Shown here one piece after another: positions 40,322 to 64,000 of a DNA stretch of 64,000 nucleotides. The DNA comes from Spartobacteria bacterium (GTDB taxonomy: Bacteria; Verrucomicrobiota; Verrucomicrobiia; Chthoniobacterales; UBA10450). Made by a program: the position numbers and the translations under genes. The stretch's first letter is position 1; each line of letters opens with the position of its first letter. The stretch lies in the NCBI GenBank assembly GCA_003169975.1, contig PNAA01000017.1, positions 62,001-126,000 on the forward strand, written 5' to 3'. The notes beneath the pieces were generated by a model. It was not told where the DNA came from, searched no databases, and saw nothing but the letters and a program-made list of their open reading frames with translations.

Positions 40322-40609
40322 ATGGTATTTCCCATGCAGAAGCAAAAGTTGCCTCGCGACAGCAATTCCCTCGCCGCTCGTATCGTGGCGCTCTCCACAG
40401 GACAGCCTGAGCCTGATATTACGGGGAAATCAAAACAGGACATTACCGTTACAAAGCCGCAAAAAGAGAAAAATCCGGCTGCGGTCGAGCTTGGACGGCT
40501 GGGCGGGCTCAAGGGCGGCAAAGCGCGAGCCGAAAAGTTATCTGCGAATCAGCGAAAGAAGATCGCAAAAGAGGCCGCTGAGGCTCGCTGGAGCAAGCCT
40601 AGGCGCTGA
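40322..40609 (+). CDS. Small basic KGG-motif protein
   Basis: 95 residues if started at 40322 (ATG at 40334 is an alternative). The C-terminal half carries NPAAVELGRLGGLKGGKARAEKLS..RKKIAKEAAEARW, a pattern common in small basic proteins of soil bacteria annotated as histone-like or left unnamed. High Lys/Arg content suggests nucleic acid binding. It lies 29 bases inside the left transposon end and overlaps the 3' end of the HTH-ImmA gene by 11 bases, convergently. Its function in the element is unknown. Confidence 0.6.
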   Translation: MVFPMQKQKLPRDSNSLAARIVALSTGQPEPDITGKSKQDITVTKPQKEKNPAAVELGRLGGLKGGKARAEKLSANQRKKIAKEAAEARWSKPRR

Positions 40610-41777
40610 ATCGCAGGATATTCTCCTCAGTGTCCACGCCAGTATTAAACCGGGGCCTTGGAAGCGCGCGGAGACTAGTCGGGGAAAGATGCCCCAATTC
40701 AAGACCGCACAACTCTTCTACATCATGCGCTGATATTCGGAGATCGGCCAGAATCTGCTCCCTCGTTTTGAATCCTTCGTCGATCATCATTCGGAGACAT
40801 TGAGACAACAGCGATGGCTGTTCCGGCTCAATGGTGTCGTCTAACGGCTCGTGTGTTTTCCATCCGCGCCGATTCATATTAATCCACAATCGTCTTTCCT
40901 GGGCTTCGTCGATTAGCCCTAAATCGGAGCAACGTTTAATCATTGCTCCGATAGAAACCTTCCAACGCGACTTTAAGAGCCGGAAAGCATCTAACGTCGG
41001 TGCATACAAATCGCGTGTGAAATCCTTGGCTGGTAAAAGGAATGCCGACGCAAAGCGGTGCGCTTGGATCTCTATCAGCTTGTGATCTTTTGGACTCGCG
41101 ATCACGGCATCGCTTACATTTCGATGAAGCATGAGATGACCAATCTCATGGGCTAAATCGAACCGTGAACGGACGGCACTTGCTTTGTCGCTGCCGAGGA
41201 ACGCAATCGGCCTACCGATAATACTCCATTGGGAGAAAGCGTCCAAGCCCTCGGCATCCAGCTTCCCTTTGCTAACCAAAATACCTTTCGACTCTGCAAG
41301 TCGAACCAGGTTCGGAACTGGGCCGCTCGCTAATCCCCAATGGTCACGACAAGCCGACGCGGCTTCCTCGATCTGCTCGCAATCGATCTTTCGGAAATCA
41401 ACCGGCACATCACAGGCCGGAAGATTGAGCTCCGGAAAATCAAAATTTTCGCTCAGATACATTACAATTTCTTGAAGCCATTCGTAGCGACGCTTTCCAC
41501 GGCTGCGCGCACCTTTCGTAGCGTAGTTCATCGATCTCCAAAAAATGCGATCGTGCGAGAAAGCTGGAATATCGGTTGAGAAATAATCCCCCGTGACGTT
41601 CAGAATCGAGGCCAATCTCTCCACCACTTCGATTGGAGGTTTTTGTCGTCCGTGCTCATAAGACGAAATGGTGGCAGGACTGACGCTCAGAATATCGGCG
41701 ACGCTGGTCGCCGTCATAAGTCTAGCCTCTCTCGCTTGCGTGAGTCGTTCCCCGACGAATGATTTCGCGCCGATCAT
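40599..41777 (-). CDS. XRE-type HTH regulator fused to ImmA/IrrE-like metallopeptidase
   Basis: 392 residues from the ATG at 41777. An N-terminal HTH of the XRE type (ERLTQAREARLMTATSVADILSVSPATISSYEHGRQKPP; about residues 10-60) is followed by a COG2856/ImmA-IrrE domain with the zinc-binding HEIGH at residues 210-214 (RSRFDLAHEIGHLMLH) and the downstream E.QAHRFASAFLLP ligand helix. Family members cleave repressors (ImmA, IrrE) or act in toxin-antitoxin and phage-control modules. The gene starts 2 bases behind the partner gene, so the two form an operon inside the transposon. Confidence 0.85.
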   Translation of the reverse strand: MIGAKSFVGERLTQAREARLMTATSVADILSVSPATISSYEHGRQKPPIEVVERLASILNVTGDYFSTDIPAFSHDRIFWRSMNYATKGARSRGKRRYEWLQEIVMYLSENFDFPELNLPACDVPVDFRKIDCEQIEEAASACRDHWGLASGPVPNLVRLAESKGILVSKGKLDAEGLDAFSQWSIIGRPIAFLGSDKASAVRSRFDLAHEIGHLMLHRNVSDAVIASPKDHKLIEIQAHRFASAFLLPAKDFTRDLYAPTLDAFRLLKSRWKVSIGAMIKRCSDLGLIDEAQERRLWINMNRRGWKTHEPLDDTIEPEQPSLLSQCLRMMIDEGFKTREQILADLRISAHDVEELCGLELGHLSPTSLRALPRPRFNTGVDTEENILRFSA

Positions 41778-41779
41778 CT

Positions 41780-42367
41780 TTACTGATTGCTGTTGCGCGC
41801 CGCACGTTTCTTCCAAGTGGCGACCGCCGTAATTTCTTCTTGGGAAGGGGCAACCGTGTCCCCGATTATTAGCTCGTGAATGTCAAAACACTCTTCCCAC
41901 CACGAAAAGTCCTCGCGGGGAACTCCTATCCGAACAAATCCTGGAATCGATTTATCCACTCTGTCCGTCGCGTGGAAAATGATTGCGCTAAATCTCCGTT
42001 TGGCATCCGTAGGCTTAATGCCCAAAATGCTCGGCATAACGAGTTGAGGAAGTAATCCGTTCAGTTCAGCGCTCTGCTCGCGGAAGATTGACGACTTGAG
42101 CATATGCTTTTCGTCGCTCGTGTGCTTGAGGGTAAAAACCCAATCGCCTGCCTCGATCTCAGTGAATTGATAGTTGTTTGCTTGATTCCATTGCAGGGAA
42201 ACTGAAAGACCTGCGGCCCGCGCTGAATCCCGCACGCGCTTTTCCATTATCGCCCGCCTGAGATGAGGATAGCTGTATTCCGCGTCGCATTCATCAAGCA
42301 GCGGGTTGTTGAAACTTGCTGCGTGGGATTCGCTGTAAGACCAAAATTTAACAATGAGAATGTCCAT
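41780..42367 (-). CDS. Unknown protein, operon partner of the HTH-ImmA gene
   Basis: 195 residues from the ATG at 42367; the frame is open to 42427 but that overlaps the transposase fragment on the other strand. Start MDILIVKFWSYSESHAASF, a charged middle part (RRAIMEKRVRDSARAAGLSVSLQW..WVFTLKHTSDEKHMLKSS) and an acidic-aromatic C-terminal segment (GVPREDFSWWEECFDIHELI). No transmembrane helix or signal peptide and no family that I recognise. Placement just upstream of an HTH-ImmA gene suggests that it is the substrate, antitoxin or effector of that protein. Confidence 0.6.
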   Translation of the reverse strand: MDILIVKFWSYSESHAASFNNPLLDECDAEYSYPHLRRAIMEKRVRDSARAAGLSVSLQWNQANNYQFTEIEAGDWVFTLKHTSDEKHMLKSSIFREQSAELNGLLPQLVMPSILGIKPTDAKRRFSAIIFHATDRVDKSIPGFVRIGVPREDFSWWEECFDIHELIIGDTVAPSQEEITAVATWKKRAARNSNQ

Positions 42368-42569
42368 GCGGCGTTTCACTCGCTTAACGAACGGATTTTC
42401 AAAGAAAGTCGCAAACCACGAGCACATGCTCGCGCTGCATTACATGTATTACAATTTTGCCCGCATCCATCAATCGCTTCGCGTCACTCCTGCGATGGAA
42501 GCTGGCATTGCCGACCACGTTTGGAGTCTGGATGAGATTATCGGTTTGCTAGAGTCGAATCGAGGCTGA
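42354..42569 (+). pseudogene. C-terminal fragment of an IS1/IS1595-type DDE transposase
   Basis: The frame gives RMSMRRFTRLTNGFSKK.., then LHYMYYNFARIHQSLRVTPAMEAGIADHVWSLDEIIGLLE, the characteristic C-terminus of this transposase group. Everything upstream of about 42354 is replaced by the partner gene on the opposite strand, so only some 70 residues remain. It ends about 200 bases before the right terminal inverted repeat, the position expected for the native transposase 3' end. This shows the element began as an insertion sequence whose transposase was lost or displaced. Confidence 0.75.
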
Positions 42570-53900: not shown

Positions 53901-54230
53901 CTGGCCGCGCGCGACAAGCTACAGAAGGCGGTTTCCGGTCACACGATGACCGACACACAAGCCGCCGACGCCCTGGCCGCGCTCACCCGCGACATCGACA
54001 GCATGGCGCAGATGGCCATGAAAGCGAGCGAAGGCAGCCTGCTCCATGAGACCAAGCTGCACGATCATCTCGCCTACCTGGCCGCGGACATTGACTTATC
54101 CTACGGTCGCCCAACTGCTGAGCAGGAAGCCGTCTTCCGCCAAGTCGACCCGCAAGCGAAGCAAGGCGAGCAAAAGCTCGAAGCCGACACCGCCCAGGCT
54201 AACAAAGTAACCGCCCAAGCAGCGCAGTGA
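50976..54230 (+). CDS. Large secreted BNR/sortilin-type beta-propeller protein (glycosyl-hydrolase-like)
   Basis: 1084 residues from the ATG at 50976, with AGAGGAA about 8 bases upstream. Signal peptide ends near LARS-QG (about residue 28). The body holds many BNR/Asp-box repeats of the form S(T)DGG/AGKTW (KSTDAGVEW, KSTDAGKTWQF, KSTDGGKTWQK, VSTDAGKTWS, VTTDGGKHWQK, KTTDLGKHWTA), forming one or two beta-propellers as in sortilin and xyloglucanases. The last 150 residues are a charged helical region, likely a coiled coil. Relatives are abundant in Acidobacteria and Verrucomicrobia, often annotated as glycosyl hydrolases without proof. The catalytic role is unknown. Confidence 0.83.
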   Translation: MRRVFGYVNVTVLLVFAIAALIPSLARSQGSGPLPPQTLMSKLKWRCVGPYIGGRVVTVTGVPGNNNLFYAGAVGGGVWKSTDAGVEWENITDGKLPGPSSSIGAVAVAPSDPNILYAGTGEADIRSDMIPGDGVYKSTDAGKTWQFAGLRDAHSISAILVDPKDPNVVYVASMGHVFAPDPSRGIFKSTDGGKTWQKTLFVDDNTGAICLVMDPNHPGLMYASMWQAARMPWGLTSGGPGSGIYKTTDAGAHWTNITRNSGLPETVLGRIGLSIAASKPDTVYTIIQAKEGGVFRSDDAGATWKHVNDEMKLRQRAFYYMTIFADPKDPNTVYVPEVDALWVSHDGAKTFTKLKTPHGDNHVVWINPDDTRILLEGNDGGATVSTDAGKTWSTEHNQPTGQFYHVNLDDQFPYHIYGAQQDEGSFEGPSASDERMIPLGAWHSVAYGESTYTVPQPGDPKITYGSGYYSIFVKHDQRTDEYRSVSPWPHYQEGASSGELKYRWGWTHPILFSPANPKQLFTAAQYVFKSGDYGATWNQISPDLTRNEKSMQVPSGGPVDLDQSGAEIFPLVSALAISPLDGNLIWAGSDDGLAHVTTDGGKHWQKVTPPELPESSWISCIEPSHTDKQTVWLTARRYMLDDFKPYIFKTTDLGKHWTAIATGLPEDEFVFDLRQDPNDSNLLFVGTRSTVYFSLDAGAHWQPLTLNLPVAQVRDIAINPRQGQIVAATHGRSFWVLDNLTFLEQLTKNPAVQSNTSFLFAPQQTWLTHDYGLPDPDRRRPPDAGYNPPFGAPVFFHLPEDYDGKTPATLEFADAKGKVIRSIPLHLATAKEKEDKEHASAAQYGEHLENAAAEPDQSGKGTDEKIREKEAKLAAAEPGMNRLHWDLRYPYATEITGYHAPIAAGGLEDSVEGPVVPPGTYSVMLDYGGQKTQQSLKVALDPRLHATQQDLEARLELDLKIHADLDTLDKDINQALAARDKLQKAVSGHTMTDTQAADALAALTRDIDSMAQMAMKASEGSLLHETKLHDHLAYLAADIDLSYGRPTAEQEAVFRQVDPQAKQGEQKLEADTAQANKVTAQAAQ

Positions 54231-54502
54231 TGTGAAACACACGGATTGGCGGTTATGGTCTCAGCTGCTGGGGGAGCAGCCACCAGCCCGTCCGCGAAAC
54301 ATCGTCAGCGATCTTACGAAGTTAATCCGGGAAGCGCAGGGAATCCGGAACCCAGGAGAATCCGGAAATCAGGGAGAGAGAACGGGGTCGCTCTTATTCC
54401 TTAACGTTGGATTGCCCGATGCCGGAGGCGGCAGGTTGAAAGTTCGAGCGAGGCAACCGGCTCTTTACATGTCTGGTCCGTTCCCGCTAATCTCCGGCCC
54501 GC

Positions 54503-55894
54503 ATGACCGCCACCGCTAATCCCGAAGATGCCGCGCCGCTCGCCGGCGAAGACCACATCCCCAACTTCCTCGGCCATCCGCGCGGGCTTTGGTATCTCGC
54601 GTTCACCGAAGCCTGGGAACGCTTCTCCTTCTACGGGATGCAGGCGCTGCTCGTCCTTTACATGGTCAAATATCTCCTGCTGCCGGGGCGGATCGAGCAC
54701 GTCGTCGCGTTCGACGCTTTCCGCCGGCTCCCGCTTTATAGCGGACTCGATGGCCAGGCGCTCGCTTCCGCCATCTTCGGCACCTACGCCGCCAGCGTTT
54801 ATCTCACGCCGATCTTCGGCGGGTTTCTGGCCGACCGCCTCCTCGGCCGGCGCCGCACCGTGCTGCTGGGCGCGCTCACCATGGCAGCCGGCCATTTTCT
54901 CATGGCCTTTGAGACCGCGTTTCTCTTCGCACTGCTTTGCCTGGTCCTCGGGAGCGGCATGTTCAAGGGCAACATCGCCAGCCAGGTCGGCTCGCTTTAT
55001 AAACCCGAAGACCTTCGCCGCGCTGACGCCTTCCAGATTTTCTACCTCGGCATCAATGCCGGCGTCATCGCCTCGCCGCTTATCGTCGGCACGCTCGGCG
55101 AAGTTTACGGCTGGCACTACGGCTTCGCCGCCGCCGGAGTGGGTATGCTCCTCGCCATCGGCATCTACCTTTCCGGCCAGAAATACCTGCGCTCCGGGGA
55201 AAACCAAGCCCGCGCCATCGCCGCAGCGCCGCGCGCGAAACTCACCGGACGCGACTGGCGGGCCGTTATTGCGCTGCTCCTCCTCATCCCGGTGCTGGCG
55301 GTCGCGATCGTGCCGAACAACCAGATCTTCAACGTCTACCTCCTCTGGGGCGACCAGCAGTTCGATCTCAACTTCATGGGGCATAAGCTGCCCACCACCT
55401 GGCTCGTCACCCTCGACGCCATCGTCAGCGTCAGCTTCCTCGCGCTCGTCGCGCTCTTCTACCGTTGGTATGGGAAGCGCTGGCGCGAGCCGGATGAGAC
55501 CACCAAGATCATCATCGGCTCCGGGTTCTCCATCGCTGGGGTGATGTGCCTCGTCATTGCGGCCGCCACGCAGCACGCCGGACACAAGATCGGCCTCTTC
55601 TGGCCGGTAGCCTTCCACGTTCTCAACAGTATCGGCTTCGCCCACATGCTGCCGGTCAGCCTCGCCCTCTTCGCCAAGTACGCGCCCAAAGCGATCAACG
55701 CCACCATCATCGGTCTCTACTACCTGGCCTTCTTCTTTGCCAACAGCATCGTCGGCTGGGTCGGCGGCTTCTACCAGACGATGCCGACCACCACCTTCTG
55801 GCTCATGCACGCCGGCTTCGCCGCCGGTGCGGGAATGTGCTTTGTGATCTTCAAATTCGTCGCCAGCCACCAACTCACGGTGGAGCCTGGGTAA
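54503..55894 (+). CDS. POT/PTR-family proton-dependent oligopeptide transporter
   Basis: 463 residues with about 12-14 hydrophobic helices. Family signature FTEAWERFSFYGMQALLVLYM (ExxERF, about residues 32-52) and YLTPIFGGFLADRLLGRRRTVLLG; KYAPKAINATIIGLYYLAFFFAN near the end. Imports di- and tripeptides with protons across the inner membrane. It has no partner gene. Standing 270 bases behind the large secreted BNR protein suggests, weakly, a role in uptake of breakdown products. Confidence 0.9.
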   Translation: MTATANPEDAAPLAGEDHIPNFLGHPRGLWYLAFTEAWERFSFYGMQALLVLYMVKYLLLPGRIEHVVAFDAFRRLPLYSGLDGQALASAIFGTYAASVYLTPIFGGFLADRLLGRRRTVLLGALTMAAGHFLMAFETAFLFALLCLVLGSGMFKGNIASQVGSLYKPEDLRRADAFQIFYLGINAGVIASPLIVGTLGEVYGWHYGFAAAGVGMLLAIGIYLSGQKYLRSGENQARAIAAAPRAKLTGRDWRAVIALLLLIPVLAVAIVPNNQIFNVYLLWGDQQFDLNFMGHKLPTTWLVTLDAIVSVSFLALVALFYRWYGKRWREPDETTKIIIGSGFSIAGVMCLVIAAATQHAGHKIGLFWPVAFHVLNSIGFAHMLPVSLALFAKYAPKAINATIIGLYYLAFFFANSIVGWVGGFYQTMPTTTFWLMHAGFAAGAGMCFVIFKFVASHQLTVEPG

Positions 55895-56038
55895 CAGACA
55901 GCAGCGAAATTCTAAAACTGACCTAGGAATTCACCGCAGCCTTGACTATCTCAGCCCGATCAACTTTGAATCCAAACTGAACTAAATTCTCCCTTCCTCA
56001 CTGTCCGAGAAAACAATGCAAGCCCAGACCGACCCCCG

Positions 56039-56275
56039 ATGAAATTCATGTCATCTCGAAAGACGCTGCAAGCGGTAATGGATGAAGATCTTCGCGATCT
56101 CCTTGAATCCATCGGCCAATTAGAGGCGTTCGATACGGGCCAACGCTTTTGTAATGTTTGCGGCGCACTGCTCACGTTAAAAAATCTGCAGATGATTATA
56201 CCGCGTGAGGGCGGGAATTTCACCTTTGTGTGCGACAGGCCAGACTGTATCGCCACCAGCGACAAGCAGATCTAA
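56039..56275 (+). CDS. Small zinc-ribbon-like protein
   Basis: 78 residues (ATG at 56048 is an alternative start). Two Cys pairs, CNVC and CDRPDC, are spaced by about 25 residues, the layout of a zinc ribbon; the N-terminal part is helical (MDEDLRDLLESIGQLEAFDTG). No known family. It is followed 5 bases later by the multi-S1 membrane protein, so the two are likely one operon. The base composition here is more AT-rich than in neighbouring genes and codon use differs, which suggests transfer. Confidence 0.65.
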   Translation: MKFMSSRKTLQAVMDEDLRDLLESIGQLEAFDTGQRFCNVCGALLTLKNLQMIIPREGGNFTFVCDRPDCIATSDKQI

Positions 56276-56280
56276 GCCAA

Positions 56281-58806
56281 ATGGAAGAGATCATCATCGA
56301 GACCTTGAAGGGCGCCTTCAAGGTGGGCGGAACGCTCCTAATTGCGGTGATAATCGTACTGTTTCTGTTAGGGCAATTTCCGAACCTAAAATTGCTCGTA
56401 AGCGCGGTGCTCACATTTTTTGGGGGTGCTGGGAAGTGGGTTCGACGGCGCGCGCTCGAGACCGAAATTGAAGGAGCGGTGAACTCTTTTTCGAAGTCGT
56501 TCAATCGCAACTATTCATTCGATTTACTTCCAGAATGTGACGTCCAGTGGGTCACGGCTCGCAATCAGGAGAACGTGCTCAAACCGGGGAAGGCGATCGT
56601 TAAGTTGAGTTTTAGTCGCGACGATCACGACCTGAATTTTTACAACGCTGCGCAGGCTTTTGTAGAAACAGGGCTCTTGCCAGATACGCGACCGTTCTTA
56701 GTGCGTGCCACGGCTAAGGCGATCGACCTGTTGATGGTTAAGATTCTGATACTACAAGGGCGACGACAAGCTCTCCGCATTTTCAACAGCAAATTCGCTG
56801 AACAGGAGCCGGATGCTCAGTCCGTTTATGCGAAGTTAGCAGAGACCGACGAAAAAGGCTTATTCCGTCAGTTGTTGCTTCCCGAACTACATCTGTTCGG
56901 CCAAGCAGTTTCTCAGAAGACCCCCAGCGCTGAAATCTCGGCGGAGACTGAAAGTTTCGTCGATTGGTTCCACGAACTCGCCACACGCTTGGCGGGCGAG
57001 GTCACCCAACTGGCTTTCGAGAGCACGAACATCAGGGTTGGCGTGATCTTGGTCGCCGATCAAGAGACGTACGACAAGTACGGAATCCGGGCTTACCTGC
57101 GAAGAGCAAACCTTTACGCCGCCCGCGAATTTCATTGCATCTATGTCCTTTCGCGGGGACGGCGCCGCGCGGATATCGCAGGGACGATTGTCGACAAACT
57201 TTGTCAGACTGGAGGCTATTCCGTGCTCAGTAAGCGAACCGCAGCGGTGAAAGGTATAGGCGACGATGAGGTTTTAATTACCTGCATCGCGATAAAGCCT
57301 GATATTACGGCCATACTTTCGAACGCTTGGCAGAAGCTAGGCGAAGACTTCAGCGCTGCCAGCGTTGTTACCGGGACGGTAGAGTATGTGACGGAAGATT
57401 TGGTCACGGTCGATGTTTACGGAATAAACTTTGAATTAGATCGGGAGCATCTTTCGTCAGTGGCGATGGGCCCGGTGTTTCGTTTCTTCGAAAGAGATCA
57501 AGAACTTGAGCTACGAATTCTCCAGTTTGACGAAGCCGGACAGACTGCTGAACTCACGAACTGCGACACGGCGACAGATCCGAAGGCGCTGGCAGAACTT
57601 GTCGAACAAAACAAGGGACAGACAGCTAAAGCAACGGTCGAGAAAATCATCAGTAGCAGGGATTATGAGGTCGGGTTAGCTCTGACTACACGGCTTGGCG
57701 ATCGGTCGGTTCGAGCATTTCTGCCTCGGATCAATGCTACGTTTAGTCGCTATGTTTCTCTTGCCGAGAGATTCCCGATCGGTTCTGAAGTAAGCGTTCG
57801 GGTTGAGAAATTCGACCTCGAGCACGGCGGTCTGACATGTAGTTTGGAAGGGTTACGCGATCCATGGGACCCACCCCCGCCTTTACAAGAGGGTTCCAAG
57901 ATCAAGGCTCGCATCTGTGAAGTCAGTGAAAATCACGCGACTTGCGAGATTGAAGAAGGCATTGAAGCACGCCTCCACCATTTAGAAATTAGCTGGGAGG
58001 CTGCTGAAGTTAACCGGCGGTACATCCGCGACATGGCTGTAGGAACGCTGCTTGAGGGCGTCGTTTTGCGTATCGAACCCGAGAAACGCTACATCTCATT
58101 CAGCGTCAAGAGGCTGACCAAGAGCGATACCGAGAAATTTTTCGACGATCACCACAACGATCTTGTTGATGTGAAAATTGAAGATATTGGGCCTATAGGC
58201 GCTACCGTTTCGTTTCCGGGAACACTGATTTCAGGCCGATTGCACGTCTCCGATATTATTTGGGGTTATTGCGAGCGCATTACCGACTACGTTCAAGAGG
58301 GAGACACCACGAGCGTGAGATGTCTAGCCTACGATCAATGGGCGGATGTCATTCACGTCGGCATCAAACAAGTCGAACCCAATCATTTTGGAGAGTTCCA
58401 GTTGCATCACGAAGTGGGCAGTTCAGTGACCTGTCGCGTCGATGCTGTTTCGGGGCGATCGATTCGAGTCCGCGCACTTTTTGATGGGCAGCAGGCCTTT
58501 GGCTACGTCTATCGAACCGAGATATCTTGGCTTCTATTTGTCGATGATCGAATGGCTCGGCACATTTTTCGCCCCGGCGAAGTGTATCAATGTTGCGTAA
58601 AGAGGTACGACGCAGCCAACCAAGTGGTTGAATTTTCACGGAAACAGTTCCTCGCCCTCCAGCATGAGAAAAACGCTTACGGAACTCCGTACCCGCTCGC
58701 TTGGTTTTTTCGAAATGGGAGGCTTTCGCCTACGGCGATTTGCTTGAAGGCAAGATCGTCGACCGCGTTGATGACCGCCGTAATCGACCGACCAACATTG
58801 AGGTGA
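56281..58806 (+). CDS. Membrane-anchored protein with multiple S1-like RNA-binding domains (3' frameshift)
   Basis: 841 residues as read. A hydrophobic segment (LLIAVIIVLFLLGQF.., about 15-50) anchors the N-terminus; residues 60-340 form an unknown mostly helical domain. At least five S1/OB-type repeats follow, seen as repeated patterns such as GSKIKARICEVSENHATCEIEEGIEARLH and VGTLLEGVVLRIEPEKRYISFSVK. After about 58700 the natural sequence moves to another frame (SKWEAFAYGDLLEGKIVDRVDD..) that stops at 58859, suggesting a lost T in the T6 run at 58708 and one more S1 unit. S1 proteins bind RNA; membrane anchoring of such an array is unusual. Atypical codon use and no TCGTTAGGC copy suggest transfer. 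Confidence 0.75.
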   Translation: MEEIIIETLKGAFKVGGTLLIAVIIVLFLLGQFPNLKLLVSAVLTFFGGAGKWVRRRALETEIEGAVNSFSKSFNRNYSFDLLPECDVQWVTARNQENVLKPGKAIVKLSFSRDDHDLNFYNAAQAFVETGLLPDTRPFLVRATAKAIDLLMVKILILQGRRQALRIFNSKFAEQEPDAQSVYAKLAETDEKGLFRQLLLPELHLFGQAVSQKTPSAEISAETESFVDWFHELATRLAGEVTQLAFESTNIRVGVILVADQETYDKYGIRAYLRRANLYAAREFHCIYVLSRGRRRADIAGTIVDKLCQTGGYSVLSKRTAAVKGIGDDEVLITCIAIKPDITAILSNAWQKLGEDFSAASVVTGTVEYVTEDLVTVDVYGINFELDREHLSSVAMGPVFRFFERDQELELRILQFDEAGQTAELTNCDTATDPKALAELVEQNKGQTAKATVEKIISSRDYEVGLALTTRLGDRSVRAFLPRINATFSRYVSLAERFPIGSEVSVRVEKFDLEHGGLTCSLEGLRDPWDPPPPLQEGSKIKARICEVSENHATCEIEEGIEARLHHLEISWEAAEVNRRYIRDMAVGTLLEGVVLRIEPEKRYISFSVKRLTKSDTEKFFDDHHNDLVDVKIEDIGPIGATVSFPGTLISGRLHVSDIIWGYCERITDYVQEGDTTSVRCLAYDQWADVIHVGIKQVEPNHFGEFQLHHEVGSSVTCRVDAVSGRSIRVRALFDGQQAFGYVYRTEISWLLFVDDRMARHIFRPGEVYQCCVKRYDAANQVVEFSRKQFLALQHEKNAYGTPYPLAWFFRNGRLSPTAICLKARSSTALMTAVIDRPTLR

Positions 58807-59044
58807 CGCTTTCGCGCAAAGGCCGGTCGCCGCGCGACGTCGAATTATCACTCGCCTGATTGACCTTCCGCGCTAAGAGGCGCAGGTGGAAAGTGGGATT
58901 GCGGGTAAGTGTGCAAATCTTGACAAACGCTTCCCTGAGTTCGCGTGCGAACCCAACAACCGCGCTCGGTTTATTTTATGAACCGGATCGTCATCGGGTA
59001 GCGATAGGACCGAGAAGCGGTAGTTACATGTTATCGGTTAATCG

Positions 59045-59671
59045 TTAATGATCTCGCGCCGGTCCTGGCGGCGCCGGGAAGATGACGAGGTTCATGTCGC
59101 CGAGGCGACGGGCGCAGAGGATTTTGCTGCCGTCCGGGGACCAGCGCGGGTTGACGAATTCTCCCGCCGCATCCGTGAGCTGCTGGATGCCGGTGCCGTC
59201 GCGGTTCATCACGAAAAGCTGGAAGCGATCGTTGATCCGACGCGAGAAAATGACGCGGCGACCGTCGTGCGACCAGGCCGGCCAGCCGTCGAGCGTGGCC
59301 TCGCCGGAGATGTTGCGATCACCGGTGCCGCCGGCGTTCATGACGAACAATTGGGAGACCTCGCTGCGGATGGAAACGAAAGCGATCTTCTTCCCATCGG
59401 GCGACCAGGCGGGCGTGTCGTCCTCATCGTTGCCGAAGGTGAGCTGACGCATGTCGCTGCCGTTCGTTTTCGAGTCGGCCTTGAGGAGATGGATTTTCAT
59501 GCCGCCGTGCCGGCTGGAGACGAGCACGATCTGCCGGCCATCGGGCGACCAGAATGGCTCGTAATCCACCGTCCAGGTGAAGGCCGCGAATTTCTTGATC
59601 GGGAAATCTTCGGCGCGCGTCACCGCCGTGGCGCTGCACAAAAGCAGGAGGAGGATGAAGCGAGGAAGCAT
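59045..59671 (-). CDS. Periplasmic TolB-like beta-propeller protein
   Basis: 208 residues from the ATG at 59671, with signal peptide (RFILLLLLCSATAVTRA-ED). Four PD40 repeats are visible: FWSPDGRQIVLVSSR, AWSPDGKKIAFVS, AWSHDGRRVIFSRR and RWSPDGSKILCARR. TolB-type propellers mediate protein-protein contacts in the periplasm. At 208 residues it is about half the length of TolB, with no N-terminal TolB domain, so it is not the Tol-Pal component itself. Alone in its neighbourhood. Confidence 0.8.
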   Translation of the reverse strand: MLPRFILLLLLCSATAVTRAEDFPIKKFAAFTWTVDYEPFWSPDGRQIVLVSSRHGGMKIHLLKADSKTNGSDMRQLTFGNDEDDTPAWSPDGKKIAFVSIRSEVSQLFVMNAGGTGDRNISGEATLDGWPAWSHDGRRVIFSRRINDRFQLFVMNRDGTGIQQLTDAAGEFVNPRWSPDGSKILCARRLGDMNLVIFPAPPGPARDH

Positions 59672-59823
59672 TGCTGGGAGCGGGCTGGGATATTGATGAT
59701 GCACAGGATCGCGGGCGATGGCGAGACTGCGCTCGAGCGACCCACCCGGCGTGGCATGATGCGTACGCGAAACGCGCCGAGATTGCTCCCGGCGCGCTGC
59801 ATTGTTGGAATTGAAATCGGCGC

Positions 59824-60138
59824 TCAGGCGGCCGGCTTATCTTTCATGCCTTTGCATTCGGTTTTGAATGTGGCGTACTGCTCCGGGGTGAGGATGGATT
59901 TGGCCTCGTGCATGTATTTGTTCTCGGTAGCTTTCGAGCAACCTTCCTTGTGATGCTCGGCCATCAAGGCGTCCATCTTCGTCTTCTGTTCTGGAGTCAG
60001 GTTGAGGTCGGCGGTTGATACCGTGCACGCCATTTTCCCATCGTTTCCGACTTGCTTGGTGCAGTTGCCGTGGTCGCCCGCGAACACGGTTCCGGCCGCA
60101 AAGAGTCCCGCTGCCACTAACGCGATCAGTTTTGTCAT
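59824..60138 (-). CDS. Small periplasmic protein with LTxxQ-like motifs (Spy/CpxP-like)
   Basis: 104 residues with signal peptide (KLIALVAAGLFAAGTVFA-GD). Two LTPEQ motifs (LNLTPEQKTKMDALMAEH and ILTPEQYATFKTEC) recall the LTxxQ repeats of Spy and CpxP, periplasmic chaperones induced by envelope stress. Four Cys residues in the mature part may form disulphides. Function inferred from the motif only. Confidence 0.65.
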   Translation of the reverse strand: MTKLIALVAAGLFAAGTVFAGDHGNCTKQVGNDGKMACTVSTADLNLTPEQKTKMDALMAEHHKEGCSKATENKYMHEAKSILTPEQYATFKTECKGMKDKPAA

Positions 60139-60347
60139 AGTGCAACCTAGACGCCGGCGCGGAGGTTGTCGTTCAAAAGTTCCCGCGAGGCACGGGGTTG
60201 CGCGGCGGGGCTGGCGGCATAAACGAGGAACCTGCCGGGCCGGCGCGGGAAAACGATCCGGCTGATCGGGCGACGCCGATTTCGATGCGTCGGGACCTCT
60301 GCCGACTCACATTATTCACACTCGTTGAATCCAAATGTCACAAGCAA

Positions 60348-60364
60348 GGTATCATACCGGTATG
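60348..60364. promoter_or_regulatory. Candidate operator with three half-sites over the permease start codon
   Basis: GGTATCATACCGGTATG contains the dyad GGTAT-C-ATACC and the perfect palindrome CATACCGGTATG, whose last ATG is the proposed start codon. Such repeated half-sites suit a dimeric repressor, for example a PadR-type regulator often linked to this permease family. No regulator gene is adjacent, so this is a structural observation. Confidence 0.35.
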
Positions 60365-62914
60365 CTTCACGACTTCAGATTTGCGTTTCGGCAGCTCGTG
60401 AAGGCACGGGCTTTTACGGCGGCGGCGGTCATCGTGCTCGCGCTCGGGATTGGCGCGAACACCGCGATCTTCAGCCTCATGAACACGCTGCTCTTCCAGC
60501 CGCCGCATTACACGAAGGCGGACGAGATCGTGCAGGTCTTTTCGCAGGATAAGAAAAACCCGAAGACGTTTCGCGGCTTTTCCTATCCGACCTACCTCGA
60601 TATCCGCGACCAAAACAGCGTCTTCTCCGGAGTGATGGCGCACAACCTGGCGATGGTCGGCGTGGGCGATAAGGGCAATACCCGGCGCGCGTTTACCGAC
60701 GTCGTGAGCGCCAATTATTTCTCGGTCCTGGGTGTGATGCCAATACAGGGTCGCGCCTTCCGGGCAGAAGAGGAAACACCTGACACCAACTCGGCGGTCG
60801 CGATCGTGAGTTACAACTATTGGAAGAAGGAAGGACTCAATCCGGCAATGCTCGGCTCGACGATCACGATCGACAGTCGGCCCTTCACCGTGATCGGGAT
60901 TCTTCCGCAAGGCTTTACTGGCACAACCCAGATCTTCGCGCCGGAAATCTGGTTGCCGCTCGGGGTTTACGATCAGGTCGCGAACGATTTCGAGACGGAG
61001 AACAAGGACAAGCTCGATGATCGCGGAGGCCGGCAACTCATGATCGTCGGCCGGTTGAAACCGGGCGTGACAGCCGCCGCGGCTGCTTCGGCCTTGAAGA
61101 CGTTGGCGGCGAGTCTCGAGCAGGCCTATCCAGTCGAGCAGAAAGATCAGACGTTCACCCTGGAAACGCTTTCGCGTTTTGCCATCAGCACCAGCCCGAC
61201 CAGCGGCAACAATATCAAACGACTGGCGCCGCTCCTCTTCGGAATGTCGGGTGTGGTGCTGCTGGTCGCCTGCCTGAACCTGGCCAACATGCTGCTCGCG
61301 CGGGGCGCGGCGCGGCGCAAGGAAATCGCGATCCGCCTGGCGCTGGGCGCCAGTCGCGGTCGGATCGTGCGGCAATTACTCGTCGAAGGCTTCGTCCTCG
61401 CACTGGTCGGCGGAGGTTTCGGGTTGCTCCTGGGTCTTTGGTCGTCCGATCTCCTCGTGGCTTCGTTAGGCAAAAAAATGCCGATCGATATCGTCTGGCA
61501 GGGCGGCCTGAGCGCGCCGGTGCTCGCGGCGACGTTCGCCTTTTGTCTGCTCGGGACGCTGGCCTTCGCGCTCGGGCCGGCGCTGAAGCTGTCGAAAGCC
61601 GCCGTCATTGGCGATCTGAAGGAACAGGCAGGCGAAGATACAGTCGTTAGGCATTGGAAATTCCTGCCGCGCAATCCCCTGGTCGTGGTGCAGATCGCGT
61701 TTTCGCTCGCGCTGCTCACCGCGGCCGCGCTCTTCATTCGCGGCGCGGGCAAGGCGGCGGCGGTCGAGACCGGTTTGCAGACGAGCTCGAATTACCTCTT
61801 GGAAGTCGACGCGAGTCTCGCGACCTACGATCAGGCACGCTCCCTGAATCTCTATCGCACACTCGAGGAACGGCTCGCCGCCCTGCCCGGCGTCGAGCGC
61901 GCGAGCATCTCCTCCACCGTTCCGTTCGGGATGGTCTCGCTCGACAAGTCGGTGCAACGCGGCGGAGCCAATCCGGCGCCGGACGCGAAGCCGGCTACCG
62001 CGGCGGAAGGTCTCGCGTTCAGGGCGAACTGGAACAGTGTCGGTGCGGATTATTTCAAAGCCGTGGGCTTGCCTCTCCTCCGCGGCCGCGCCTTTAACAT
62101 CTCGGAAGCGATGCACCAAACGTCACCGAAAGTCGCCATCATCGACGAAGTGCTCGCGAAAAAGCTCTGGCCCGATGGCGACGCGCTGGGCGAGCGAATT
62201 CAATTTGCGGAAAAGGATCCGACCACGGCCAAGGGCGGCGGTGACGCGACGAGAGCGCAGATCGAGGTCGTCGGTATCGTGCCTTACGCGCGCAACGATT
62301 TGTTCGAGAAAAATCCCAGCGGCATGCTCTATCTCCCCTTTGCCGGCGGTTTCCAGAGCAACGTTTTCTTTCACATCAAATTCGCGCCCAACGCCGGCCG
62401 CGATGTCGGCGCGACCACGGATCTCATTCGTCGCACCGTGCGCGAAGTGGATGCTGCCGTTCCGGTCTTGACCTTGAAGACGTTCGCGCAACATCTCGAT
62501 GGCAATCTCGAGCTCTGGATCGTGCGCGCGGGCGCGGCCTTGTTCAGCATCTTTGGCGGTCTGGCCCTGGCGCTCGCGACCGTCGGCGTGTATGGCGTGA
62601 AGGCCTACTCGGTCGCGCGTCGCACCCGGGAAATCGGGATTCGCATGGCGCTCGGCGCACAGCGCGAGACGGTGCAATGGATGATCCTGCGCGAAGGTAT
62701 CGTGATGCTCGCGAGCGGAGTGTTGCTCGGCCTGCTCCTGGCGGCAGCGACTGGCAAACTCATTAGCGGAATGCTCTATAACGTCGGCGCGCTCGATCCG
62801 CTCGCGTTTGCGATTGCACCGGTCGTGCTCGCCGTGGCGGCGTTCGTCGCAACCTGGCTTCCGGCGCGGCGCGCCACGAGGATCAGCCCGATGGCCGCCC
62901 TCCGCACGGAATAG
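60362..62914 (+). CDS. MacB/FtsX-type ABC permease (ADOP family)
   Basis: 850 residues from the ATG at 60362 (an ATG at 60335 would add nine residues). One N-terminal helix (FTAAAVIVLALGIGANTAIFSLMNTL), a large MacB periplasmic core domain, then FtsX-type permease helices repeated twice (LLVACLNLANMLLARGAARRKEIAIRLALGASR near residue 310 and GVKAYSVARRTREIGIRMALGAQRE near 750), with a second periplasmic domain between. The duplicated FtsX arrangement is typical of ADOP permeases of Acidobacteria and Verrucomicrobia. There is no ATPase gene adjacent, so an ATPase encoded elsewhere would be required. Transported substrate unknown. Confidence 0.88.
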   Translation: MLHDFRFAFRQLVKARAFTAAAVIVLALGIGANTAIFSLMNTLLFQPPHYTKADEIVQVFSQDKKNPKTFRGFSYPTYLDIRDQNSVFSGVMAHNLAMVGVGDKGNTRRAFTDVVSANYFSVLGVMPIQGRAFRAEEETPDTNSAVAIVSYNYWKKEGLNPAMLGSTITIDSRPFTVIGILPQGFTGTTQIFAPEIWLPLGVYDQVANDFETENKDKLDDRGGRQLMIVGRLKPGVTAAAAASALKTLAASLEQAYPVEQKDQTFTLETLSRFAISTSPTSGNNIKRLAPLLFGMSGVVLLVACLNLANMLLARGAARRKEIAIRLALGASRGRIVRQLLVEGFVLALVGGGFGLLLGLWSSDLLVASLGKKMPIDIVWQGGLSAPVLAATFAFCLLGTLAFALGPALKLSKAAVIGDLKEQAGEDTVVRHWKFLPRNPLVVVQIAFSLALLTAAALFIRGAGKAAAVETGLQTSSNYLLEVDASLATYDQARSLNLYRTLEERLAALPGVERASISSTVPFGMVSLDKSVQRGGANPAPDAKPATAAEGLAFRANWNSVGADYFKAVGLPLLRGRAFNISEAMHQTSPKVAIIDEVLAKKLWPDGDALGERIQFAEKDPTTAKGGGDATRAQIEVVGIVPYARNDLFEKNPSGMLYLPFAGGFQSNVFFHIKFAPNAGRDVGATTDLIRRTVREVDAAVPVLTLKTFAQHLDGNLELWIVRAGAALFSIFGGLALALATVGVYGVKAYSVARRTREIGIRMALGAQRETVQWMILREGIVMLASGVLLGLLLAAATGKLISGMLYNVGALDPLAFAIAPVVLAVAAFVATWLPARRATRISPMAALRTE

Positions 62915-62995
62915 GCGCCGAAGCGGTCTTTTGTGCGCGCGGCTCAGACAAGAAATTCACCGCCTTCCGCACGCTGACAGACGTTCTTGGGAGCG

Positions 62996-63040
62996 CCCCG
63001 AAAGCGTTCGGGGGGCTGGTGACGGCGCCCTCGCCGTCAC
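62996..63040. repeat. Two hairpins downstream of the ABC permease
   Basis: CCCCGAA-AGCG-TTCGGGG (62996-63013) and GTGACGGCG-CCCT-CGCCGTCAC (63019-63040), both perfect, the second followed by GAACTTTAGA as in the element at 49331. They could act as a terminator for the permease gene but lack a long T tract; a REP relationship is as likely. Confidence 0.5.
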
Positions 63041-63118
63041 GAACTTTAGACTCTGACTGATACCCGTCTTGTTTCGTTCGACGCTATCGTCACCTCCAGG
63101 GCGCGAATAGACCTCGTC

Positions 63119-63445
63119 TCATACTTTTTGCGCGCGGATCTCCTGGGCGACCTCCTCCAGGAGTTGGCGAGCGCCACGAAAGCGTCCGCCAAACCTATCG
63201 GAGTGCTCCTTCTGGAGGGCCGGAGCAAAATTGTCCCGGTAACGGTGATACTCCGCGAGCGACCGGCAATGATACTGCATCACGTAGCTCGGATCGGCCG
63301 CATTGGAGTCGATGACCTTGTAGATGCGACACTCGGAGAAGCATCCCGTGCGGACGACATCGGGAACATGGATGCGCTTCATCCAATCGACCCACTCCGA
63401 CTCGATGTCGGCATCAATGGTTATCGTAACGCAATAAATAATCAT
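63119..63445 (-). CDS. DUF4286 family protein
   Basis: 108 residues from the ATG at 63445; the longer open frame upstream overlaps the ferredoxin remnant. The sequence MIIYCVTITIDADIESEWVDWMKRIHVPDVVRTGCFSECRIYKVI.., with YVMQYHCRSLAEYHRYRDNFAPALQKEH, has the pattern of small DUF4286 proteins with a ferredoxin-like (dimeric alpha-beta barrel) fold. The function is unknown. It lies 47 bases behind the broken ferredoxin gene on the same strand. Confidence 0.75.
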   Translation of the reverse strand: MIIYCVTITIDADIESEWVDWMKRIHVPDVVRTGCFSECRIYKVIDSNAADPSYVMQYHCRSLAEYHRYRDNFAPALQKEHSDRFGGRFRGARQLLEEVAQEIRAQKV

Positions 63446-63492
63446 ACTGTCGCGGCCTTCGGCGGCGGTTCTGTTTTCGCTTTTGTCACGAT

Positions 63493-63623
63493 TCACGCGT
63501 CGGCGCCGTCCCAGCCTACAGCCTGATGCGCCGTCTCCGCGAGCTTGATGCAGTCGACCGGGCAGACTGAAACGCAGGTCGCGTAGCACTCGCCGAGCAG
63601 ATGTCGGTGATGACGTAGGGCAA
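63493..63623 (-). pseudogene. Ferredoxin gene, frameshifted and shortened
   Basis: A TTG start at 63623 with AGAGGAAT upstream gives MPYVITDIC; the sequence then continues in another frame as GECYATCVSVCPVDCIKLAE.. to a TGA at 63493. The combined order C-x7-C-x3-C-x3-C is the first cluster motif of bacterial 7Fe/8Fe ferredoxins, which usually run to at least 60 residues with a second CxxC motif; here only about 43 remain. One base lost near 63594 explains the frame change. It may be real decay or an assembly error, since the short length also argues for damage. Confidence 0.6.
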
Positions 63624-63648
63624 AATGATTCCTCTCGCCGCCGAAGGG

Positions 63649-64000
63649 CTAGACCAGGAATTTGCCGCGTGCCATGATTTGTTCGTTGTCGAACCAGATG
63701 TCGAAATCGCGCCCGACGCAGTCGATGTGCGTTTTGGAAATCCAGGTCTGCCCGGTGTGCTCCGCGTAGGGATGACCGAAGGCGATGTGGATGCCAGGAA
63801 TTTTTTCGTCCTGCAAAATATTGCCGATGACGCGGGTGCAGGCGGTGTTGGTGCCGACGGCGAATTCGCCGACGCGGTTGCTGTTCTCGTCCGTGCTGGT
63901 GTAGGCGCGAAATTCTTCGAGTAACTCCCGGTTGTCGCAGGCTAACGAGTGAATGCGGTTTTCCTTCACCACAATGGTGAGCGGCGTCTTCTGAATGTCG
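63649..64000 (-). CDS. Aminopeptidase of the M29 family (C-terminal part, continues beyond the window)
   Basis: The last 116 residues of a protein that runs off the right edge. Segments GEFAVGTNTACTRVIGNILQDEKIPGIHIAFGHPYAEHTGQTW and KTHIDCVGRDFDIWFDNEQIM match the C-terminus of aminopeptidase T-like metallopeptidases, where Glu, His and Asp in these stretches bind the two metals. The family cleaves N-terminal amino acids from peptides. The 5' part, upstream genes and exact start are outside the window. Confidence 0.75.
   Translation of the reverse strand, partial: DIQKTPLTIVVKENRIHSLACDNRELLEEFRAYTSTDENSNRVGEFAVGTNTACTRVIGNILQDEKIPGIHIAFGHPYAEHTGQTWISKTHIDCVGRDFDIWFDNEQIMARGKFLV

Follow-up and report, generated by a model that had tools for sequence, protein, structure and literature searches.

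Arrays of S1 repeats are familiar chiefly as parts of the ribosome and of RNA-decay enzymes. RNA-binding-type domains are held at the membrane in RNase E (S1) and RNase Y (KH), and the first repeats of bS1 itself bind protein. A study of huge phages reports, in its passages on S1 proteins, that some of these carry as many as six S1 domains, and proposes that they redirect host translation (PMC7162821). Pairs of the RosmerTA type have been described as phage-defence toxin-antitoxin systems (PMC10440598). Here, we analyzed a locus in a 64,000-nucleotide stretch of contig PNAA01000017.1 from a soil-type Spartobacteria bacterium (hereafter, the window), in which a small gene is followed by a larger gene whose product combines an N-terminal membrane segment, an unnamed domain, and an array of S1 repeats. 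The two ORFs lie on the same strand with 5 bases between them. In our literature searches, a membrane-anchored S1 array was described nowhere. The features of the locus and of its relative are summarized in Table 1.

Table 1. Positions of the features of the two-gene locus in the window and of the related pair in genome G935 (locus L034).
Feature	Position	Strand	Basis or remarks
Transporter gene, left flank of islet	54503-55894		
AT-rich islet	55900..59050	.	GC ~0.47-0.55 (GC profiles)
Small partner gene, 78 aa	56039-56275	+	ORF; C-x2-C and C-x4-C motif; no library match
Membrane-anchored S1-array gene, 841 aa	56281-58806	+	One frame, from ATG
Membrane segment, residues ~11-32	56311..56376	+	Kyte-Doolittle; helices in single-sequence model, pLDDT 57-74
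Unnamed N-terminal domain, residues ~55-345 (~290 aa)	56443..57315	+	Conserved in relative
S1-type repeat array, residues ~347-795	57319..58665	+	Pfam, six-repeat model, bS1 colinearity
T6 run, probable -1 frame change	58705..58710	+	Codon likelihoods change frame between 58700 and 58706
Probable true C-terminal coding segment, -1 frame (KWEAFAYGDLLEGKIVDRV...ELSLA)	58711..58859	+	S1-like fragment
TolB-like gene, right flank of islet	59045-59704	minus	
G935 S1-array protein, 628 aa	L034:8218-10104	minus	Membrane segment, N-domain, C-terminal S1 region
G935 small partner gene	L034:10152-10547	minus	Directly upstream, 47 bases from S1 gene

The initial annotation of this DNA, which had been made from the sequence without database searches, placed a membrane helix at the N-terminus of the larger protein, and a strong hydrophobic segment was indeed found there. 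A weaker hydrophobic stretch at residues 36–51 is followed by KWVRRR (Kyte–Doolittle), and because this basic run comes after the hydrophobic part, the protein would sit on the inner side of the cell membrane. The domain that follows had been described as an unknown domain of about 280 residues; this description holds, since its approximately 290 residues had no match in Pfam, NCBIfam, PHROGs, PADLOC, or the PDB sequences. It carries the motif DE-x-GLF-x2-[LI]LL-x-EL. The single-sequence structure prediction of the whole 841-residue protein was unusable (pLDDT 37), and structure prediction of the N-terminal domain, a check that the initial annotation had proposed, yielded a weak two-sequence AlphaFold model (pLDDT 49, pTM 0.35). 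In this low-confidence model, residues ~254–342, the C-terminal third of the domain, resemble the nucleic-acid-binding Alba/IF3-C fold, which we regard as suggestive only. This part aligned with 1vm0_A at a Z score of 8.0 and an rmsd of 2.8 (87 residues aligned), and the best E value in a Foldseek search was 0.011. Pfam gave no match for residues ~254–342, and their profile–profile scores against Alba and IF3 were no better than those of column shuffles, in a comparison in which one of the Alba and IF3 rows, the first Alba row, was checked against a database.

The S1 repeats were identified in three ways. Pfam matched S1 in three stretches of the protein (E 1.3e-12), and in a phmmer search against PDB chains, residues 348–749 were colinear with residues 93–484 of Escherichia coli bS1 in one stretch (E 2.4e-27). 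We also built a six-repeat S1 model from the repeats of the genome's own rpsA, which detected two clear repeats at residues 537–614 (E 2.6e-9) and 627–700 (E 1.6e-4) and a marginal one at residues 361–422; the remaining repeats were taken from the colinear bS1 alignment only. Taken together, these results indicate that the array is real by sequence and consists of about four to five strongly diverged S1 repeats. The S1 assignment of the initial annotation therefore stands, and its count of at least five is reduced to about four to five, of which two are clear and one is marginal. The genome has a canonical six-repeat rpsA at G000:C58, with rpsB-like and tsf-like genes nearby, and because the host possesses this separate, normal gene, we consider that the S1 gene of the window does not encode the ribosomal protein bS1. 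Its product scored far below the curated rpsA equivalog cut-off (best 180.5 vs 524 bits; TIGR00717, 126.3 vs 577). The aromatic residues at the “fgaf” position of S1 domains contact RNA. In the two clearest repeats, this element reads NHAT and IGAT, while the S1 loop histidine is retained in both, and the array as a whole is acidic (51 K+R vs 73 D+E). Because the RNA-contact aromatics are lost in these two repeats, RNA binding cannot be assumed, and the link to RNA made in the initial annotation stays a putative one.

To find relatives, we carried out 1856 genome look-ups, many of them overlapping, which yielded one distinct relative of the S1 gene (E 5.9e-19, 27% identity) in genome G935, which is labeled Gemmatimonadota via a family common to G935 and the metagenome-assembled genome (MAG) Gemmatimonadetes palsa_1244. 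The initial annotation could name no known relatives; the occurrence of the same gene pair in G935 refutes this. The two pairs agree in gene order, orientation, membrane segment, N-domain (27% identity; local score 197, shuffles 33 ± 5), S1 region, and the presence of a homologous partner, whereas the G935 pair differs in having fewer S1 repeats, a partner without the Cys pairs, a 47-base gap, and a prophage setting. The C-terminal region of the 628-residue protein was matched by rpsA models (TIGR00717 E 1.7e-7), and the G935 copy is intact. Because the membrane segment and the N-domain are also common to the G935 relative, we consider that the pair forms a real two-gene family, whose conservation rests on two sequences. 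The gene-neighborhood survey and the pair-conservation test that had been proposed at the outset thus found the pair kept in a single distant relative, where neither the order nor the orientation of the genes has changed.

The small genes of the two pairs are homologous (score 65; 1000 shuffles gave a mean of 23, a standard deviation of 4, and a maximum of 45). The homologue precedes the S1 gene in G935 too, which supports the earlier view that the small gene 5 bases upstream is a partner. That view had also made it a zinc ribbon, and here the evidence is divided: the 78-residue protein does contain two Cys pairs (Cys38-x2-Cys41 and Cys65-x4-Cys70), but no zinc-ribbon profile of Pfam matched it significantly, the best weak match of this kind being the NOB1 Zn-ribbon (E 0.11; 13.1 bits against a cut-off of 24.9), and only one of its four Cys is retained in the G935 homologue. 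Because the Cys pairs are not conserved in the relative, a zinc ribbon is no family trait; by these alignments, the conserved feature is the gene pair, not the zinc motif.

The N-domain was absent from the other 213 searched genomes of the order, including four of the same genus, and was not found in the other sampled genomes of the class and phylum at the sensitivities used. Similarly, no relative was detected in 50,697 phage records, 72,556 plasmid records, or the IMG/VR scans at the sensitivities used, and a two-sequence profile (window and G935) gave no further relatives when run on more genomes. Weak N-domain matches in G110, G387, G488, and G536, four other genomes from the phylum to which the window belongs, were rejected as chance, the matched regions being unrelated genes or stop codons read through. 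A 100% match in palsa_1244 (PKVB01000017.1; L011) was not counted as a second case, being the same contig: the identity extends over 9.4 kb and takes in both flanks (window 54645–64000, 100% identity). A short stretch near 53984–54552 differs between the two assemblies. Because the same contig occurs in both MAGs, a stray contig has probably ended up in one of the two bins. The transporter gene on the left flank of the islet is 84–88% identical in two genomes of the same genus or family as the window, and the contig was therefore placed in the window's own lineage.

The G935 pair is located within one ~42-kb stretch of phage genes, between the early and the late genes. On one side are integrase (phrog_95), ParB-like, and HTH genes, and on the other are the genes for endolysin, major head protein, head protease, portal, and large terminase; the neighbors of the pair are a D12 DNA methyltransferase gene and a DUF4062 gene. 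Positions between early and late prophage genes commonly carry accessory cargo. As a separate observation, the DUF4062 protein (L034:5768-6778) showed a weak match to the TIR-like ThsB (E 0.003). Because the diverged pair recurs inside the prophage of an unrelated bacterium, we conclude that it is a real, very rare mobile two-gene module.

The setting in the window differs, since no phage genes were found in the islet itself. The GC content was 0.513–0.522 in the three 1-kb bins at 56–59 kb, compared with 0.555–0.663 in the other bins except those at 40–43 kb, which agrees with the deviating composition noted in the initial annotation, and the GC content at third codon positions was about 0.6 in the islet genes vs 0.73–0.84 in the adjoining genes. 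With this foreign composition, the window copy looks acquired from outside. DNA similarity to the two genomes that share the transporter gene breaks off where that gene ends. No empty site could be read, since the relatives share the transporter gene and not the right flank, and a search for insertion-marking repeats flanking the islet found none.

Two further observations concern the window. Its second AT-rich islet (40599-42427, minus strand) is a RosmerTA-type pair, consisting of RmrA (HTH and ImmA/IrrE, 405 aa; PADLOC PDLC03948, E 6e-134) and RmrT (215 aa; PADLOC PDLC03934, E 7e-21). In addition, the 9-mer TCGTTAGGC occurs in 31 copies on both strands, at sites from 7619 to 61644, where approximately 0.5 copies would be expected at equal base frequencies, and the flanks of the copies are not conserved. 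In L026, a locus of the same genus, it is dense (25 copies in 17 kb); L028, L029, and L031 also contain it, and L027 and the Gemmatimonadota loci lack it. In appearance, it is a dispersed motif of the uptake-signal type. The initial annotation had remarked that the islet lacks this 9-mer. This is correct, but the window has 31 copies, and the gap between them from 50.4 to 61.5 kb far exceeds the islet, so that the absence is weak evidence.

The explanation that we tentatively place first, though at somewhat less than an even chance, is that this rare two-gene module, which moves horizontally, is carried as prophage accessory cargo and works at the membrane on RNA or ribosomes. Anchoring at the inner face would leave the N-domain and the S1 repeats in the cytoplasm, where they could contact RNA or the ribosome, and the small protein would be a regulator or partner of the S1-array protein. 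The role may be a prophage-encoded accessory function, such as excluding competing phages or controlling translation during lysogeny. Judging from the mobile and prophage context only, we consider an accessory prophage role most likely, in preference to a housekeeping ribosomal role. The initial annotation had proposed a new system: the two-gene family is real, but a defence or stress role is suggested only by context (the foreign islet and, in the relative, the prophage cargo). A more ambitious reading is that the pair represents a new class of membrane-tethered S1 arrays with a dedicated small partner, spread by prophages, with an N-domain of a new or unrecognised family, that captures RNA or ribosomes at the membrane during phage infection for exclusion or defence. 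We hold this to be rather unlikely; if the exclusion or defence function were true, an S1-based effector would be added to the arms race between phages and bacteria.

Another possibility is that a phage or other element encodes a redirector of translation, in which the array would serve as an extra bS1 that brings chosen mRNAs to ribosomes and the membrane segment would locate this process at the membrane, helping the element and not the defence of the cell. The colinearity with bS1 and the prophage location of the G935 relative are consistent with this idea, but the typical RNA-contact residues are lost and neither the window copy nor the G935 copy is in a huge phage. Huge phages offer a precedent in their multi-S1 proteins, for which redirection of host translation has been proposed, but the passages on these proteins describe neither a membrane segment nor an N-domain (PMC7162821). 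On balance, we think a redirecting role rather improbable.

The 3′ end of the window gene raises a different issue. Gene-trained codon statistics preferred the open frame as far as 58700; beyond 58706, they preferred the -1 frame, which runs to a stop at 58859. Because of this preference, 58859, where the initial annotation had ended the gene, is probably the true end of the coding region. The window copy is probably frameshifted, via mutation or assembly error, and it may be decaying, with damage at the 3′ end. It could then be a foreign gene without current function, horizontally acquired and since frameshifted, as the change of frame at the T6 run, the last S1-like piece in the -1 frame, and its uniqueness within the order would suggest. 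However, most of the gene, approximately 805 codons, is open and retains the conserved motifs, one homopolymer indel might have arisen in the assembly, and the G935 copy is intact. The identical DNA of PKVB01000017.1 does not decide whether the frameshift is genuine, because it is possibly from the same reads and so not independent. We judge it unlikely that the gene is simply decaying. Finally, it is quite improbable that the S1 repeats serve protein contacts (e.g., docking to the ribosome or the partner) in a membrane scaffold with no RNA-binding role. The acidic array, the lost aromatic residues, and the protein-binding first repeats of bS1 point that way, but the conserved S1-loop histidine is retained in two repeats and the low-confidence model of residues ~254–342 resembles a nucleic-acid-binding fold.

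The combination of a membrane-anchored array, an unnamed domain, and a linked partner points to an uncharacterised means by which mobile elements could influence translation or RNA at the membrane. The module resides in a prophage in one phylum and in a foreign islet in a second phylum, and the family at present has two known distinct members. Like prophage exclusion and defence cargo such as RosmerTA, the pair consists of rare mobile genes that occupy accessory or prophage positions; it differs in having no recognised toxin domain and no PADLOC match (PADLOC 2.0.0: 0 families matched by either window protein or either G935 relative). It is also similar to the rpS1-like proteins of huge phages, which are multi-S1 proteins encoded on phage genomes, whereas the passages on those proteins describe no membrane anchor, N-domain, or small partner (PMC7162821). 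With RNase E and RNase Y, the window protein shares RNA-binding-type domains at a predicted membrane anchor, although Pfam showed no ribonuclease domain in it up to E 10 and no KH or HD domain. It is like bS1 (rpsA) in its colinear S1 repeats, and differs from it by the N-terminal membrane segment and the unnamed domain of approximately 290 residues.
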